Positions 39,874 to 48,552 of a stretch of 64,000 nucleotides of DNA are shown here, piece after piece. The notes beneath the pieces were generated by a model that ran no database searches, had not been told where the DNA came from, and saw only the letters and a program-made list of their open reading frames with translations. The stretch comes from Verrucomicrobiia bacterium. Its GTDB lineage: Bacteria; Verrucomicrobiota; Verrucomicrobiia; Limisphaerales; JAEYXS01. The translations under genes and the position numbers were made by a program. Each line of letters opens with the position of its first letter. Position 1 is the first letter of the stretch. The DNA lies in NCBI GenBank assembly GCA_036405135.1, contig DASWYF010000002.1, forward strand, positions 186,001 to 250,000. Reading direction: 5' to 3'.

Positions 39874-40824
39874 ATGAGCGAAACACAAAAGCTATCACCG
39901 CGGGAGGTGATTCAAGCCATTCAAGCAAACGTCGAGCAGGTCATGAAGGGCCAGAGCGAGGCCATTCGTAAGCTGCTCGCGGCACTCATCAGCGGCGGGC
40001 ATGTGCTGCTGGAGGATTATCCAGGCACAGGTAAGACGACGTTGGCGAAGGCGCTGGCACTCTCTGTGCAAGCGGAATTCAAGCGCATCCAGTTCACGCC
40101 GGATTTGCTGCCATCCGACATTCTCGGTGTCTCCATCTTCAACCAACGCGATCAGCTCTTTCATTTTCATGAGGGACCGGTATTCGCGAACATTTTGTTG
40201 GCGGATGAGATCAACCGCGCCTCACCACGCACGCAATCGGCCTTGCTCGAGGCAATGGGTGAAGGGCAGGTGAGCGTTGAGGGTGTTCAGCGCAAATTAT
40301 CCGAGCTGTTCTTCGTGATCGCGACGCAGAATCCGGTGGAGTTTCGCGGAACGTATCCACTGCCGGAGGCGCAGATGGACCGGTTCGCGCTGCAATTCAC
40401 GCTGGGTTACGTGAGCACGGAGGAGGAAGTTTCCATCCTTTCGGCGCAGGAGCGGAAGCATCCGATCGAAAGTTTAAAACCGTGCGTGACGATGGCGGAT
40501 GTGATGATGACGCGGCAGGCAGTGCAGGCGATCAGCATCAGCGAAGAATTGAAGCGTTATATCGTGGACTTGGTTTCGGCGACGCGTAAGGCGCAGGGAG
40601 TGCAATTGGGCGCAAGCCCGCGTGCATCGTTGTCATTGATGAAAGCGGCGCAGGCATTGGCGATGTTCGATGGGCAGAAGTTTGTGACGCCGGAGAATAT
40701 CCAGGAGCTGGCGGTAGAGGTCATCGCGCATCGTATGGTGATGGAGCCGCAGGCGAAGTTCAGCGGGCTTTCAGCGAAGGGTGTGGTGCAGGATATTTTG
40801 AAGACGGTGAAGGTGCCGGCTTAG
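39874..40824 (+). CDS. MoxR-family AAA+ ATPase
   Basis: 316 residues. Walker A LEDYPGTGKTTLAK, Walker B ILLADEINRA, sensor 1 FVIATQNPVEFRGTYPLPEAQ and arginine finger in MDRF. MoxR ATPases act as chaperones for the maturation of membrane or secreted complexes, usually with DUF58/VWA partners, as here. ATG at 39874, with GGGAGAC upstream. The next gene is 190 bases downstream, across hairpin repeats. Confidence 0.9.
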   Translation: MSETQKLSPREVIQAIQANVEQVMKGQSEAIRKLLAALISGGHVLLEDYPGTGKTTLAKALALSVQAEFKRIQFTPDLLPSDILGVSIFNQRDQLFHFHEGPVFANILLADEINRASPRTQSALLEAMGEGQVSVEGVQRKLSELFFVIATQNPVEFRGTYPLPEAQMDRFALQFTLGYVSTEEEVSILSAQERKHPIESLKPCVTMADVMMTRQAVQAISISEELKRYIVDLVSATRKAQGVQLGASPRASLSLMKAAQALAMFDGQKFVTPENIQELAVEVIAHRMVMEPQAKFSGLSAKGVVQDILKTVKVPA

Positions 40825-40834
40825 GAAAAGCGAG

Positions 40835-40970
40835 CAGGTGAGGGCACCTGCACGACTGAAGCAGACGAGGGCGTCTGGTCCACTATGGAGAGTGTGGAAA
40901 ATGGGAGACTGGACAGGCGGTGGCGCCTGTCCCACTACGGAGGGTAAGGCAGGCGAGAGTGCCAGTCTTA
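40835..40970. repeat. Array of four similar hairpins inside the moxR operon
   Basis: Four units of the type CAG-xCG-AGGG-CGx-CTG: 40835-40850 (CAGGTG/CACCTG), 40862-40877 (CAGACG/CGTCTG), 40913-40930 (ACAGGCG/CGCCTGT) and a degenerate one at 40950-40965. Loops are 4 bases (AGGG, AGGG, GTGG, AGAG). Three are perfect stems. Trailing CCACTA or CGACT words repeat too. Located between moxR and DUF58. Confidence 0.7.
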
Positions 40971-41014
40971 CTAGGGGGTGCAGATGTGTCGGGGAAATGA
41001 AGTGATATAGAAGT

Positions 41015-42385
41015 GTGAAATGGGGCTTAGACAACTTTCGCCGGAGGTCATACCGACAGTATCGCGGCTACTACGTGATGCGCCGGTGGATTGTGCGGCG
41101 TGTGGGGCGTGTGGGGGTGCTGATCCTCGGATGCACCATAGTCCTCGCGATGTTCGGCCTGGATACGAATCTGACGGTGGCGTATCAGGCGCTCTCGCTG
41201 ATGTTGGTGCTAATACTTGTGGCTTTGCTCACAAGGCGGCTGGCGAAGACGAAATTCAGCGCGCACCGGATTTTGCCGCGCTTTGCTTCAGCGGGTTCGC
41301 CGGTGAAATATCGTGTCCGCTTCAAGAATCTGGGGCGTTTCACGGTGCGGGATGTGGGATTGTTGGAGGAACTTTCCGATCCGCGTCCGACGTTGGATGA
41401 GTTTCTGGCTACGCCTGAGCCAGGAGAGGAAAAGCGCAACTGGTTTGATCGCACCTATGGTTTCTACCGCTGGCAGTGGTTGGTGGATATCAATCAGCGG
41501 GCGATCGTCACGGAAGGCAAGGTGGATCGTTGCCTTCCCAAGGCGGCGGTGGAGGTCGAGATGGAGCTGCTACCGAGACGGCGTGGGGTGCTGCATTTTG
41601 AAAAGATGATCGCGACCAGCATGGATCCCTTAGGAATATTCCGTCAGCTCTCACCGGTGACATTGCCGGACAAGCTGCTGATCTTGCCGAAACGGTATGC
41701 GATACCGCACTTTGCACTGCCGGGAACGATGCGATATCAGCAAGGCGGTGTGGCGCTCGCGGCTTCGGTGGGTGAATCGGAGGAGTTCGTTTCCCTTCGT
41801 GATTATCGCCCGGGTGATCCGATGCGGCATATCCATTGGAAAAGTTGGGCACGCTCGGGCAAGCCGATCGTGAAGGAATTTCAGGATGAGTTCTTTGTGC
41901 GGCACGCACTGATCTTGGATACATTCGATACGGTGGCTTATAGTGAGCAATTTGAAGAAGCGGTTTCGGTGGCGGCTTCATTCGCCTGCACGATCCAGAC
42001 ACAGGATTCGCTGCTGGACCTGATGTTCGTAGGAGCCCAGGCGTATTGCTTCACGGCGGGTCGCGGTTTGGCGCATACGGAGCAAATGCTGGAGATATTA
42101 GCGTCGGTAAATCTTTGTCAGACGAAGGGTTTCAAGTCGCTGGCGAATGTGGTCGTCGAGCATATCCCGGTGGTGAGCGGATGCATCTGCGTATTGTTGA
42201 AATGGGATGAGCCGCGCAAGGAGTTCATCCAAATGTTGCGCGGATTGAATGTGCCTGTGGTAGTATTCATCGTGACCGAGAAAAACGCTGCAAAGATAAT
42301 GGATCTGGGGCCGATGGCGGATATCCCGGCACAGTTCCACCAGCTTGAGGTGGGCAAGGTGGAGGAGGCCTTGAGGGCATTATGA
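41015..42385 (+). CDS. DUF58 protein
   Basis: 456 residues. Two hydrophobic segments near the start (VGVLILGCTIVLAMFGL; ALSLMLVLILVALL), then a domain with the DUF58 signature FVSLRDYRPGDPMRHIHWKS near residue 259-278, followed by a VWA-like fold (HALILDTFDTV). Partner of MoxR in gene sets with transglutaminase. GTG at 41015 or ATG at 41078 are possible starts; neither has a clear ribosome site. Its stop overlaps the next start (ATGA). Confidence 0.86.
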   Translation: MKWGLDNFRRRSYRQYRGYYVMRRWIVRRVGRVGVLILGCTIVLAMFGLDTNLTVAYQALSLMLVLILVALLTRRLAKTKFSAHRILPRFASAGSPVKYRVRFKNLGRFTVRDVGLLEELSDPRPTLDEFLATPEPGEEKRNWFDRTYGFYRWQWLVDINQRAIVTEGKVDRCLPKAAVEVEMELLPRRRGVLHFEKMIATSMDPLGIFRQLSPVTLPDKLLILPKRYAIPHFALPGTMRYQQGGVALAASVGESEEFVSLRDYRPGDPMRHIHWKSWARSGKPIVKEFQDEFFVRHALILDTFDTVAYSEQFEEAVSVAASFACTIQTQDSLLDLMFVGAQAYCFTAGRGLAHTEQMLEILASVNLCQTKGFKSLANVVVEHIPVVSGCICVLLKWDEPRKEFIQMLRGLNVPVVVFIVTEKNAAKIMDLGPMADIPAQFHQLEVGKVEEALRAL

Positions 42386-44451
42386 AGACACCTCCGTTTT
42401 TATTGGGACTGTCGCTGGTGTTCTGGGGATACCAGTCTGGAATGCTGTGGGTGGGGGGTGCTTTGGCGGTGTTGATGGAGCTTTCGCTGATCGTCAGGCA
42501 GCGTTGGGATGTGGATCGCGGGGATTATTATCGCGTGTGGGATTTTTGCGCGATCCTGTTTGCCGCCTCGGCGATCTATTGTTTCGTGTCGAGGGATACC
42601 ACAAATGACGTGATGGAATTTTTCCAGGCGACGAACTACAGCAAGCGCAATCAGGTCTTGAACAATGCGTTTGCCACGGCGTTTATCTTCTTTCAATGGA
42701 TGCCCATCGTGTTCTTTCCCATCGCGATGACTCAGGCATATGCAGCGAACCCGTCGATTCCTTACAGCACGTTCTCGTGGATCTGGCGCAGGCAGTTAAG
42801 ACAGGGGCTGGTGGCGGAACGAGGTGCGATGAATGTCTCCTATCCGTATTTCGCGATCGTGCTGTTCTCGACCTCGCTCGTGAATGAGCGTGATCCTGTC
42901 TTTTATATCGGGTTGAGCATTCTGGTGCTGTATGCTCTGGCGGCGATACGTTCACGGAGATTTTCCCCGCTCATCTGGGCCCCGCTCGCCCTGGCCGTGG
43001 TGGTGTTGGGACATTTTGGCCACATCGGCCTGCAACAGGCCCAAGGGGCGGTGGAGACGAGCTTCTCACAATGGCTCTCCAAGATCATCAACCGCAATTC
43101 GAATCCGTATGAAAGCCGGACGGCTATCGGGCGATTGGGCAGGCTGAAACTTTCTGGCGAGGTGGTGATGCGGGTGGAGGTGCAAGGGGCACCTGTGGAG
43201 CTTTTACGGGAAGCCAGTTATGACACGTTTGTGAGCCCATCCTGGATCGTGACGCGCAGCAAATTCGAGGATGCCGTTTCCGAGAATGATGCGACGACGT
43301 GGCCGTTGATTCCCGAGAAGGAGACTAAAGGCACGGCGATCATCTCCACATATTTCCCTCGCGGTCGAGGCATGTTGTGCGCGCCGAACGGCGTGGCGGC
43401 GATTGACAAGCTGCTGGCGGCGCAGATGGAGACAAACTTTTACGGTGGCATCCGGGTGTCGAATGCGACGGCTTTCGCCCGGTATGAAGCGAAGCATTCA
43501 CCGGGGAAGACGATCGACTCAGATCCGATCGAAGCAGACCGAATTGTGACGGACAGCGAGAGCGAAAGCGTCAAACGGGCGGTCGCCGAGACAGGATTGA
43601 AACCAGAGGATACTTTGGAGAAAAAATTGATAGTTTTGCAGCAGTTCTTCACTGAGAAGTACCGTTACGACACCTGGCAAGGGAGGAAAGAACTGCGTCC
43701 CAAGGAAACGATGCTGGGATACTTCCTGCTGCGCAGCCGCGCCGGGCACTGCGAGTACTTCGCCACGGCCACGGTGCTGATGTTGCGGGCGCTTGGAGTC
43801 GAGGCGCGCTATTCCGTGGGTTACGCCGTGCAGGAGACGGAAGGCGGGCCCAACCGCTTCGTGGTGCGTGAACGGCATGGTCATGCATGGGTGCTTTATT
43901 ACGACCGCGCGGAAGGGGTGTGGAAAGACTTTGATACGACGCCGCCGGACTGGTTCGCAGTGGAAGAGGCAAAGAATTCGTCGATGTTCGAGCCGCTGAA
44001 GGATCTATGGTCCAAGATGCGATTTCAGATATCCGAGTGGCGCTGGCTGACGGATCGCGAGAAGTTTCGGCAGAACATGATCTGGCTGATGGTGGTGCTG
44101 ATCGCCGTGCTGGCGTGGCGCCTGGTGCGGCGCAGCCGGATGAAAAAAACGGATGGAGGACCTGCGGGGACTTCCAAGCCGATTGATTGGCCGGGGCGTG
44201 ATTCGGAGTTTTATGCTGTTGAGCAGAAGCTCGCGGCCATGGGGCTGGATCGTTTGGAAAGCGAAAGCATCAATGATTGGTTGGCGAGGGTACGTGAACT
44301 GATGCCGGATGCCGTAGTGGAACTCCCGTCGCTGGTGAAGTTGCATTACCGGTATCGTTTTGACCCAGCGGGTTTGTCAGCAGAGGAACGCAAGGTGTTG
44401 AGGGAAGGGGTGGCGGAATGGATGAAGACGCAGAAAGTAGGAGTCAAATAA
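42382..44451 (+). CDS. TgpA-like membrane transglutaminase
   Basis: 689 residues. N-terminal membrane domain of several helices (LLGLSLVFWGYQSGMLWVGG, LAVVVLGHFGHI), a large extracytoplasmic part, then a transglutaminase-like core with catalytic triad: Cys457 in RAGHCEYFATA, His501 in RHGHAWV, Asp518 in KDFDTTPPD. A last helix (MIWLMVVLIAVLAW) near 570 is followed by a cytoplasmic DUF4129-like tail (EQKLAAMGLDRLESESINDW). Overlap with DUF58 by 4 bases. MoxR-DUF58-TgpA is a recurrent bacterial unit whose exact role is unclear. Confidence 0.86.
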   Translation: MKTPPFLLGLSLVFWGYQSGMLWVGGALAVLMELSLIVRQRWDVDRGDYYRVWDFCAILFAASAIYCFVSRDTTNDVMEFFQATNYSKRNQVLNNAFATAFIFFQWMPIVFFPIAMTQAYAANPSIPYSTFSWIWRRQLRQGLVAERGAMNVSYPYFAIVLFSTSLVNERDPVFYIGLSILVLYALAAIRSRRFSPLIWAPLALAVVVLGHFGHIGLQQAQGAVETSFSQWLSKIINRNSNPYESRTAIGRLGRLKLSGEVVMRVEVQGAPVELLREASYDTFVSPSWIVTRSKFEDAVSENDATTWPLIPEKETKGTAIISTYFPRGRGMLCAPNGVAAIDKLLAAQMETNFYGGIRVSNATAFARYEAKHSPGKTIDSDPIEADRIVTDSESESVKRAVAETGLKPEDTLEKKLIVLQQFFTEKYRYDTWQGRKELRPKETMLGYFLLRSRAGHCEYFATATVLMLRALGVEARYSVGYAVQETEGGPNRFVVRERHGHAWVLYYDRAEGVWKDFDTTPPDWFAVEEAKNSSMFEPLKDLWSKMRFQISEWRWLTDREKFRQNMIWLMVVLIAVLAWRLVRRSRMKKTDGGPAGTSKPIDWPGRDSEFYAVEQKLAAMGLDRLESESINDWLARVRELMPDAVVELPSLVKLHYRYRFDPAGLSAEERKVLREGVAEWMKTQKVGVK

Positions 44452-46527: not shown

Positions 46528-46553
46528 AGGGTGCTCCTTGGTTGGTTGTTTAG

Positions 46554-46642
46554 TTATCAATTACTATCATAAACTATCATTGTAAATGCTTTTCTATCAA
46601 AAATGTTGATTTTAATCATTTCTTGATAGTTAATGAGTATCA
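46554..46642. promoter_or_regulatory. Phased TATCA repeats in a divergent promoter region
   Basis: AT-rich gap between the membrane protein and the HTH gene. TTATCA at 46554, CTATCA at 46564, CTATCA at 46574 and CTATCA at 46594 lie on an exact 10-base grid (the 46584 place is degenerate). An inverted TTGATAG (46623-46629) and GTATCA (46637-46642) follow. One-helix-turn spacing suggests cooperative binding on one DNA face, probably by the adjacent HTH protein. Confidence 0.6.
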
Positions 46643-47216: not shown

Positions 47217-47702
47217 ATGCAAACCGGAACAAAAGAGATCGGAGTGATTTTGGCGCTAGTTCTGCTTGCCGGGGTGGTTGTGGTGGTTGCCAGTGCGTAT
47301 CCGGTTCCGGGCTCTCGGAGATTTTGCGGTCATCCGGATGAGCGATTCAAAAGTGTGGATGGATTTCTCGATTGGGTTCAGGGAGTCAGGCATCATTGCA
47401 AAGGAGGAAAGTTGATTGCCGACCTTAAGATGCTGCAATTGGCGCAGAAGATGCATCTGGACGATACTGGCAGATACGCAGCCAATGAAGCGGAGCTGGT
47501 TCCGTATCTTGGGAGCTGGTTCAAGACGAACTACTATATCGTAAATTATTCTGCGGGCGCTAATCAGTGGTCGGTTGCGGTGGATAGATCACAGTATCTG
47601 CCTGGACATTATTTGCTGACTGGCGGAAAGGTCCATTTCCATGAGACCAATCCAGCGACGACCAATGATGTGCTTCTGGCCGTAGTAGAAACGGATCGGT
47701 GA
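47217..47702 (+). CDS. Membrane-anchored protein with pilin-like globular domain
   Basis: 161 residues. One N-terminal transmembrane helix (GVILALVLLAGVVVVVASAY) but no prepilin cleavage motif. The rest, ADLKMLQLAQKMHLDDTGRY, AANEAELVPYLG, resembles the helix-strand part of GspG-like pseudopilins (x-A-x-x-Y-x-x-D-T-G-x-Y). ATG at 47217. Twenty bases before the C39-like gene. Could be a substrate or partner of that peptidase; this is only a positional hint. Confidence 0.55.
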   Translation: MQTGTKEIGVILALVLLAGVVVVVASAYPVPGSRRFCGHPDERFKSVDGFLDWVQGVRHHCKGGKLIADLKMLQLAQKMHLDDTGRYAANEAELVPYLGSWFKTNYYIVNYSAGANQWSVAVDRSQYLPGHYLLTGGKVHFHETNPATTNDVLLAVVETDR

Positions 47703-47721
47703 GCTTTTTTGCGGAGGTTTT

Positions 47722-48552
47722 ATGTTTGGGTTGATGCTGTTGATGCTGGTGTCGGCGCTGGCATTCCTTGCCGGTCGCAGGCTGGCATCTGGCTGGTCGC
47801 GCAGTGCGCGCATGGTGGGAGTGTTGGTCAGTCTGCTGACGGCGCTGGCGTTTTTCCGATGGGCGTATGATACGGCTGCCGTGGTGTTGCTGGTGCCACC
47901 GTCATGGTTGCCGTTCGCGGCGGAATGGCAGGTGCCTTTGGTGGCTTTGGGAGCAGGGATTTTCATGCGTGAGACGAATTTGCCTTGGTGGCGAAGAATC
48001 GTCCTGGGTGCTTTGCTGGTAGTTGGGGCTTCTCTGCCGGTGGGAAAGGTGGTCTTTGGGGAGGTGCCGCGTAGTGTTGATTTTTGGGACGGCATGGTCT
48101 GTCGCCAGACGCATCCGTCCACTTGCTGTGCAGCGGCAGCGGCCACCTTATTGCAATATCATGGTATCGCGGCAGTGGAGGGTGAGTTGATCATGGCCTG
48201 TTTTACACGGAAGGATGGGACATCGCTTGGCGGCCTGCTGCGCGGAGTTGAGTTGATGGCCCGCCCACAGGGGTATCGCGCGAGGGTGGCGACAGCTACG
48301 TTGGATGATCTGAGGAGCAAGGAACGGCAACCGGCCATCCTGCTGGTGAATTTGCGGCCGGAAGTCGCGGCGAAGGAGCCTCGCTACGAGAACCAGTGGG
48401 GCTGGGTTATCGGGCAGAGTCATGCGGTGGTCCTGCTTGGCTTTAATGAGGCCGGTCACCCGATCATCGGTGATCCTTCGGTGGGGAGGGAGGTTTGGAG
48501 CCTGGAGGGACTGACGGAACTATGGGTGGGAACAATGGTTTGGCTGGAATAG
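47722..48552 (+). CDS. Membrane protein with C39-like cysteine peptidase domain
   Basis: 276 residues. Three or four N-terminal membrane helices, then a papain-like C39 domain: QTHPSTCCAAAAATLLQYHG (Cys135 or Cys136 as nucleophile, Gln129 oxyanion), His234 in GQSHAVVLLGF and Asp251 in IIGDPSVGRE. C39 peptidases usually sit at the N-terminus of bacteriocin ABC exporters and cut double-glycine leaders; this one is free of ABC domains and is membrane-tethered. GGAGG precedes the ATG. Substrate unknown. Confidence 0.75.
   Translation: MFGLMLLMLVSALAFLAGRRLASGWSRSARMVGVLVSLLTALAFFRWAYDTAAVVLLVPPSWLPFAAEWQVPLVALGAGIFMRETNLPWWRRIVLGALLVVGASLPVGKVVFGEVPRSVDFWDGMVCRQTHPSTCCAAAAATLLQYHGIAAVEGELIMACFTRKDGTSLGGLLRGVELMARPQGYRARVATATLDDLRSKERQPAILLVNLRPEVAAKEPRYENQWGWVIGQSHAVVLLGFNEAGHPIIGDPSVGREVWSLEGLTELWVGTMVWLE

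Follow-up and report, generated by a model that had tools for sequence, protein, structure and literature searches.

The Pho box, an operator of the OmpR/PhoB type, is built of CTGTCAT direct-repeat words with an 11-bp period. In Streptomyces, BldC binds its operators head-to-tail, which is described as a distinct mode among transcription regulators, and its recognition words are loose (PMC5859096). The repeat period of BldC is 9 bp and its binding bends the DNA; the half-site follows the rule AATTXXXX(C), in which Arg30 recognises the guanine of a 5'-YpG-3' step (PMC5859096). RdfS also forms head-to-tail oligomers, with each subunit occupying ~10 bp of DNA, and it binds the promoter of its own gene (PMC11963761).

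Here we describe a row of 10-bp words in a 64 kb stretch of DNA, referred to below as the window, between the gene of a protein combining an HTH_17 domain with a zinc ribbon (the HTH gene) and a divergent membrane-protein gene. Comparison of this locus with its relatives makes it fairly probable that the adjacent HTH_17-zinc-ribbon protein uses the grid as its operator, where it would act as an autoregulatory head-to-tail repressor.

Results

A 10-bp grid between two divergent genes

The four TATCA cores, at 46555, 46565, 46575 and 46595, share a single 10-bp phase (Table 1). Four in-phase TATCA words never arose in 5000 dinucleotide shuffles of the intergenic sequence (46528-46642); when the word could be any 5-mer and the period anything from 7 to 14, one shuffle of 5000 equalled the observed grid. 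No second TATCA or TGATA grid of this kind occurs elsewhere in the window. The original prediction, which had set these four words on an exact 10-base grid, is borne out by the coordinates, by the shuffles and by the homologues, and the in-phase grid of the window is confirmed as real. In a same-genus relative (L022) the fourth repeat is replaced by CTCTCA. Across the window's own genome a one-mismatch version of the array pattern is near background, with 10 matches against 6 on the reversed control.

For the divergent gene the most likely start is ATG 46527, which has a GGAG upstream, and not TTG 46560 as in the mechanical list of open reading frames; the array is therefore intergenic. On the opposite side of the intergenic sequence, the original prediction had an inverted copy and a last copy overlapping the HTH start. 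Both copies are present, the inverted one reading TGATAG (46624-46629), but the last TATCA (46638-46642) precedes and abuts the start codon ATG 46643, lies off the grid, and probably does not belong to the operator. The position and orientation of TGATAGTTAATGAGTA, ~20 nt before the ATG, match those of a clear TGATAGN4TGATAG-type array in four relatives (L062-L065), and it is probable that a second, HTH-side array of the window has been reduced to this sequence.

Table 1. Positions of the repeats and of the surrounding genes in the window
Feature	Position	Strand	Remarks
Repeat 1, TTATCA	46554..46559	+	on 10-bp grid, same register in relatives
Repeat 2, CTATCA	46564..46569	+	on 10-bp grid
Repeat 3, CTATCA	46574..46579	+	on 10-bp grid
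Repeat 4, CTATCA	46594..46599	+	on 10-bp grid, two turns from repeat 3
Probable degenerate HTH-side half-operator, TGATAGTTAATGAGTA	46624..46639	-	inferred from the inverted arrays of relatives
Regulator gene, 154 aa	46643..47107	+	HTH_17/excisionase-type winged HTH and zinc ribbon
Divergent polytopic membrane protein, 585 aa	44770..46527	-	start ATG 46527; no Pfam family
MoxR ATPase	39874-40824	+	named from sequence and neighbourhood, without family search
DUF58-type protein	41015-42385	+	named from sequence and neighbourhood, without family search
Transglutaminase	42382-44451	+	Pfam

The adjacent regulator

The regulator consists of an N-terminal winged HTH (residues 14-61) and a C-terminal zinc ribbon with the cysteines C76, C79, C119 and C122. 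That the gene is of the excisionase type, as originally proposed, follows from scores above the cut-offs of both PF12728 (HTH_17; 53.7 bits, cut-off 27) and TIGR01764 (excisionase-type; 52.5 bits, cut-off 28.8). In the alignment of homologues R33 is invariant, and the four cysteines are kept in all sequences long enough to include them. The protein was modelled with moderate confidence (mean pLDDT 67, rising to about 82-84 over the HTH), and phage Xis, BldC and RdfS are among the best PDB matches of the model, with a Foldseek probability of 1.0 each and E-values of only 0.02-0.05.

An excisionase acting as a recombination directionality factor would be expected to go with an integrase or attachment site; among the named conserved neighbours of the regulator gene no integrase was found.

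Several other assignments were considered and rejected. The match to the MADS antiphage regulator MAD1 (NF047737) reached 50.6 bits against a cut-off of 80 and was limited to the HTH. A phage origin was set aside since viral contigs gave only two distant, partial matches. A classical MerR regulator, with a dimerisation coiled coil, a palindromic operator and a promoter spacer of 19-20 bp, does not agree with the direct repeats, with the 16-17 bp spacers of the high-scoring promoters (in a scan that allowed 15-19) or with the zinc ribbon that follows the HTH.

Conservation of the array upstream of homologues

Homologues of the HTH gene are sparse, occurring in 14 of 320 genomes of the order and in 8 others of the phylum sample, with further records besides. 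We compared the upstream DNA of 24 non-identical HTH loci from Verrucomicrobiota and Lentisphaerota, the window included, the relatives being 47-88% identical. Conservation in relatives, whose absence would by its own terms have refuted the original prediction, was the decisive test, and it was found: an array of the CTATCAN4CTATCA type, with at most two mismatches, is present at 20 of the 24 loci on the same exact 10-bp grid. Among TATCA/TGATA pairs within 60 bp of each other, 31 of 35 are spaced by 10, 20, 30, 40 or 50 bp; the spacing is exactly 10 bp in 17 pairs, where shuffles give a mean of 0.04 and a maximum of 2. The consensus word derived from 70 units is CTATCATTTA. As the array is kept beside the regulator gene in distant relatives, the row of 10-bp words is very likely a real regulatory switch.

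Several loci carry two opposed arrays: the first precedes the divergent gene, and the second, in inverted orientation, the HTH start. The inverted array lies ~20-40 nt before the HTH start in L062, L063, L064 and L065, and is more distant in L060 and L061.

Four HTH loci have no array (L030, L053, L057 and L058). On the HTH tree these array-less loci require two changes, and a single loss is not supported. At L053, L057 and L058 there is no divergent membrane gene and the HTH gene lies upstream of a same-strand MoxR gene; the operator may thus have changed along with the arrangement. The regulators of these three loci (genomes G014, G239 and G244) carry RWI in place of RWM, with an isoleucine after the RW pair of the recognition region, and they may recognise a different word.

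The regular spacing bears on whether the repeats work as DNA at all. A translational or RNA-binding element in the RNA leader could be imagined, since the sense strand reads TGATAG and many arrays lie close to the ribosome-binding site. The exact 10-bp step, kept across skips of 20-50 bp, speaks against such an element, as does the position of the repeats, which start at or before the predicted -10 in several loci and would be partly untranscribed; we regard a function in RNA as highly improbable.

The array follows the regulator

Of 22 genomes with the HTH gene, 12 contain an exact match to YTATCAWWNRCTATCA, as do 2 of 58 without it (Fisher p 7e-7, kinship ignored), a count that is descriptive and not blind, the pattern having been devised after inspection of the arrays in HTH-positive genomes. 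In the HTH-positive genomes 14 of 18 matches adjoin the HTH gene. The membrane protein itself is encoded by 38 genomes of the order, in 29 of which the upstream DNA was examined: the array stands at the membrane-protein gene in 8 of 10 HTH-positive genomes (G014 and G132 being the two without) and in 0 of 19 HTH-negative ones (p 1e-5, kinship ignored). The original claim that the array controls both the HTH gene and the divergent gene, with autoregulation, appears well supported by the conserved array, by the several inverted arrays on the HTH side, and by the absence of the array at membrane-gene homologues in genomes that lack the HTH gene.

These observations also weigh on the possibility that the array belongs to another regulator that binds head-to-tail repeats of 10-11 bp, for instance a response regulator of the OmpR/PhoB type, with the HTH gene as a mere target. 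CTATCATTTACTATCAT does look like a Pho box, and some response regulators likewise bind direct repeats (PMC5859096). However, the period is 10 bp, with no 11-bp spacing among the 35 close TATCA/TGATA pairs, and the pattern CTGTCAWN4CTGTCAW, scanned in 14 HTH-positive genomes, has no match at the locus. In the same genomes the Pho-box-like pattern gave 56 matches, compared with 37 for its reversed control, and G548 accounts for the excess. Moreover, the membrane-gene promoters of HTH-negative genomes are without the array, arrays flank the HTH gene across lineages despite different neighbours, and no response regulator is among the named clusters of conserved neighbours, which are partly annotated. 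Ownership by a response regulator is, on this evidence, quite improbable, and the HTH_17-zinc-ribbon protein is the preferred binder. In genome G548 the Pho-box-like pattern has 19 matches, against 5 on the reversed control, and an exact CTGTCATATAACTGTCAT lies at C67:46490.

Arrays are also found away from the regulator gene. In G554 and G548, on contigs other than that of the HTH gene, they precede a membrane-protein homologue (G554, L087) and alpha-2-macroglobulin (G548, L074 and L125). Further unlinked arrays stand at a small membrane-protein-like gene in G554 (L083) and, with three words, before an M50/RseP-type protease gene in G623 (L094). In G530 and G635 a TPR-like gene beside the regulator also has an array upstream. 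Most array-marked target genes look like genes for envelope proteins. The alpha-2-macroglobulin of L125 (4975-10041, minus strand) has TED, MG2 and A2M domains by Pfam. At L121:1518-1544 in G554, the words CTATCT, CTATCA and CTATCA lie ~75 bp before a membrane-protein-like gene, a possible further unlinked target. Seven one-mismatch sites (L104, L116, L118, L119, L120, L122 and L123) were discarded because they lie inside predicted genes, and L117 was not counted, as its two words belong to what looks like an ordinary TTGACA-17-TATATT promoter.

Gene neighbourhood

Homologous membrane-protein genes are divergent from the HTH gene in many loci and are its usual divergent partner; the membrane-protein families A2 and A3 are homologous to each other (profile comparison: probability 98.6, E 5e-16). 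In the window a MoxR-DUF58-transglutaminase cluster (39874..44451, plus strand) lies just beyond the membrane gene. Relatives of this cluster form the divergent or the downstream operon of the HTH gene at other loci: MoxR and DUF58-type genes often come after the divergent membrane gene, and in some places the HTH gene directly heads the MoxR-DUF58-transglutaminase run. At three loci (L056, L068 and L069) the divergent gene is alpha-2-macroglobulin, with the array.

In Lentisphaerota, the divergent membrane protein of L060 (6401-8707, minus strand) ends in a DUF1559 (SBP_bac_10) segment, above the Pfam cut-off, and that of L061 looks similar. Downstream of the HTH gene of the window (47217-48552) are genes for a 161-aa secreted-looking protein and a membrane protein with a C39-peptidase domain, an order kept only in the same-genus relative L022.

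Overlap with predicted promoters

Where the predicted promoters score highly, the first repeat falls on the -10 or directly behind it and the row continues beyond +1; part of this overlap is built in, because the word itself resembles a -10 element. Such overlap is seen on both sides of L060, L061 and L065 and on the divergent side of L028. The best-defined promoters (TTGACA-16-TATGAT or TATAGT, and TTGCAT-17-TATAAT) have normal spacers. The promoters of the window itself are weak candidates only, the best divergent -35 candidate being TTGATA, the complement of 46595-46600.

Since the repeats lie where the operator of a repressor would lie, it is most likely, judging from the predicted promoters, that the regulator represses both genes, with negative autoregulation. 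The same protein at the same site might instead be an activator or an architectural protein that remodels the promoter by MerR- or Xis-like bending. MerR relatives activate from inside the promoter and BldC bends DNA (PMC5859096), and in L062, L063 and L064 the repeats reach upstream of the predicted -10. Against activation, the normal spacers and the placement of the repeats at ~-10 to +20 in the best-defined promoters correspond to the usual place of a repressor. We consider an activating or remodelling role unlikely, and repression remains the preferred reading.

Discussion

With these findings in mind, one may propose how the regulator acts. According to this model, one winged-HTH monomer would bind each 10-bp word (CTATCATTTA). 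The spacing of the words, roughly one turn of the helix, would bring the monomers to the same face of the DNA, where they would stack head-to-tail in the manner of BldC. At the divergent membrane-protein gene the array would span the core promoter; the second, inverted array, degenerate in the window and clear in several relatives, would span the promoter of the regulator itself, so that bound protein would block RNA polymerase at both. The outcome would be negative autoregulation together with coordination of an envelope gene set, comprising the membrane protein and often MoxR-DUF58-transglutaminase. The zinc ribbon may serve in signal sensing or in oligomerisation. Binding by the regulator, stacking, repression over activation and the role of the zinc ribbon are all steps that we infer. 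The filament-like operator put forward in the original prediction is plausible because the nearest structures, those of BldC, Xis and RdfS, oligomerise on DNA.

We lean slightly towards the broader view that these proteins form an undescribed family of HTH_17 and zinc-ribbon regulators in Verrucomicrobiota and Lentisphaerota, reading rigid 10-bp head-to-tail words, often in facing arrays, and controlling an envelope regulon that includes unlinked genes. If so, the regulon would take in the polytopic membrane protein, MoxR-DUF58-transglutaminase, alpha-2-macroglobulin and the M50 protease. In a limited search of the open-access literature, with most subscription journals outside its scope, no paper describing this regulator-operator pair was found. 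The motif is ready for use in tracing which genes this uncharacterised regulator, probably tied to the envelope, controls in bacteria that have been little studied, and a sharp, conserved 10-bp word with a natural series of 2-4 copies offers a means of testing how BldC-like proteins count and stack.

Among known operators, the Pho box of OmpR/PhoB-type regulators resembles the array in its tandem CTxTCAT words and AT-rich spacers; it differs in that the period here is 10 bp and not 11 bp, and in that the array tracks the HTH_17 gene and not a response regulator. The excisionases RdfS and phage Xis (PMC11963761; PDB 8DGL, 4J2N) share the HTH_17 fold, and the ~10 bp covered by each RdfS subunit compares well with the 10-bp period. 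However, a consensus word was not found for RdfS and is defined here, and unlike the setting of these excisionases, no integrase is recognised here among the named neighbours and the regulator gene lies beside envelope genes.

With BldC (PDB 6AMA, 6AMK) the regulator shares a MerR/Xis-type winged HTH of matching fold (Foldseek probability 1.0, E 0.02) and, on the DNA side, direct repeats in variable copy number. R33 aligns with the recognition residue Arg30 of BldC, and the repeat can be read, in a register chosen by eye, as AT-rich(4)-CTAT-C with a TpG on the other strand; both lend support, short of proof, to BldC-like recognition. The regulator would work like BldC and yet is no member of the BldC family by the model test, scoring 15.1 bits with NF033787 (HTH_BldC) against a cut-off of 77. 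In the alignment Lys26 and His46 of BldC appear to be replaced by P29 and S48, and the period is 10 bp where that of BldC is 9 bp. Finally, whereas BldC recognises loose words and its family consists of the winged HTH alone, the system described here has strongly conserved words, a facing pair of arrays in a divergent promoter, and a 154-aa regulator with an added C-terminal zinc ribbon.
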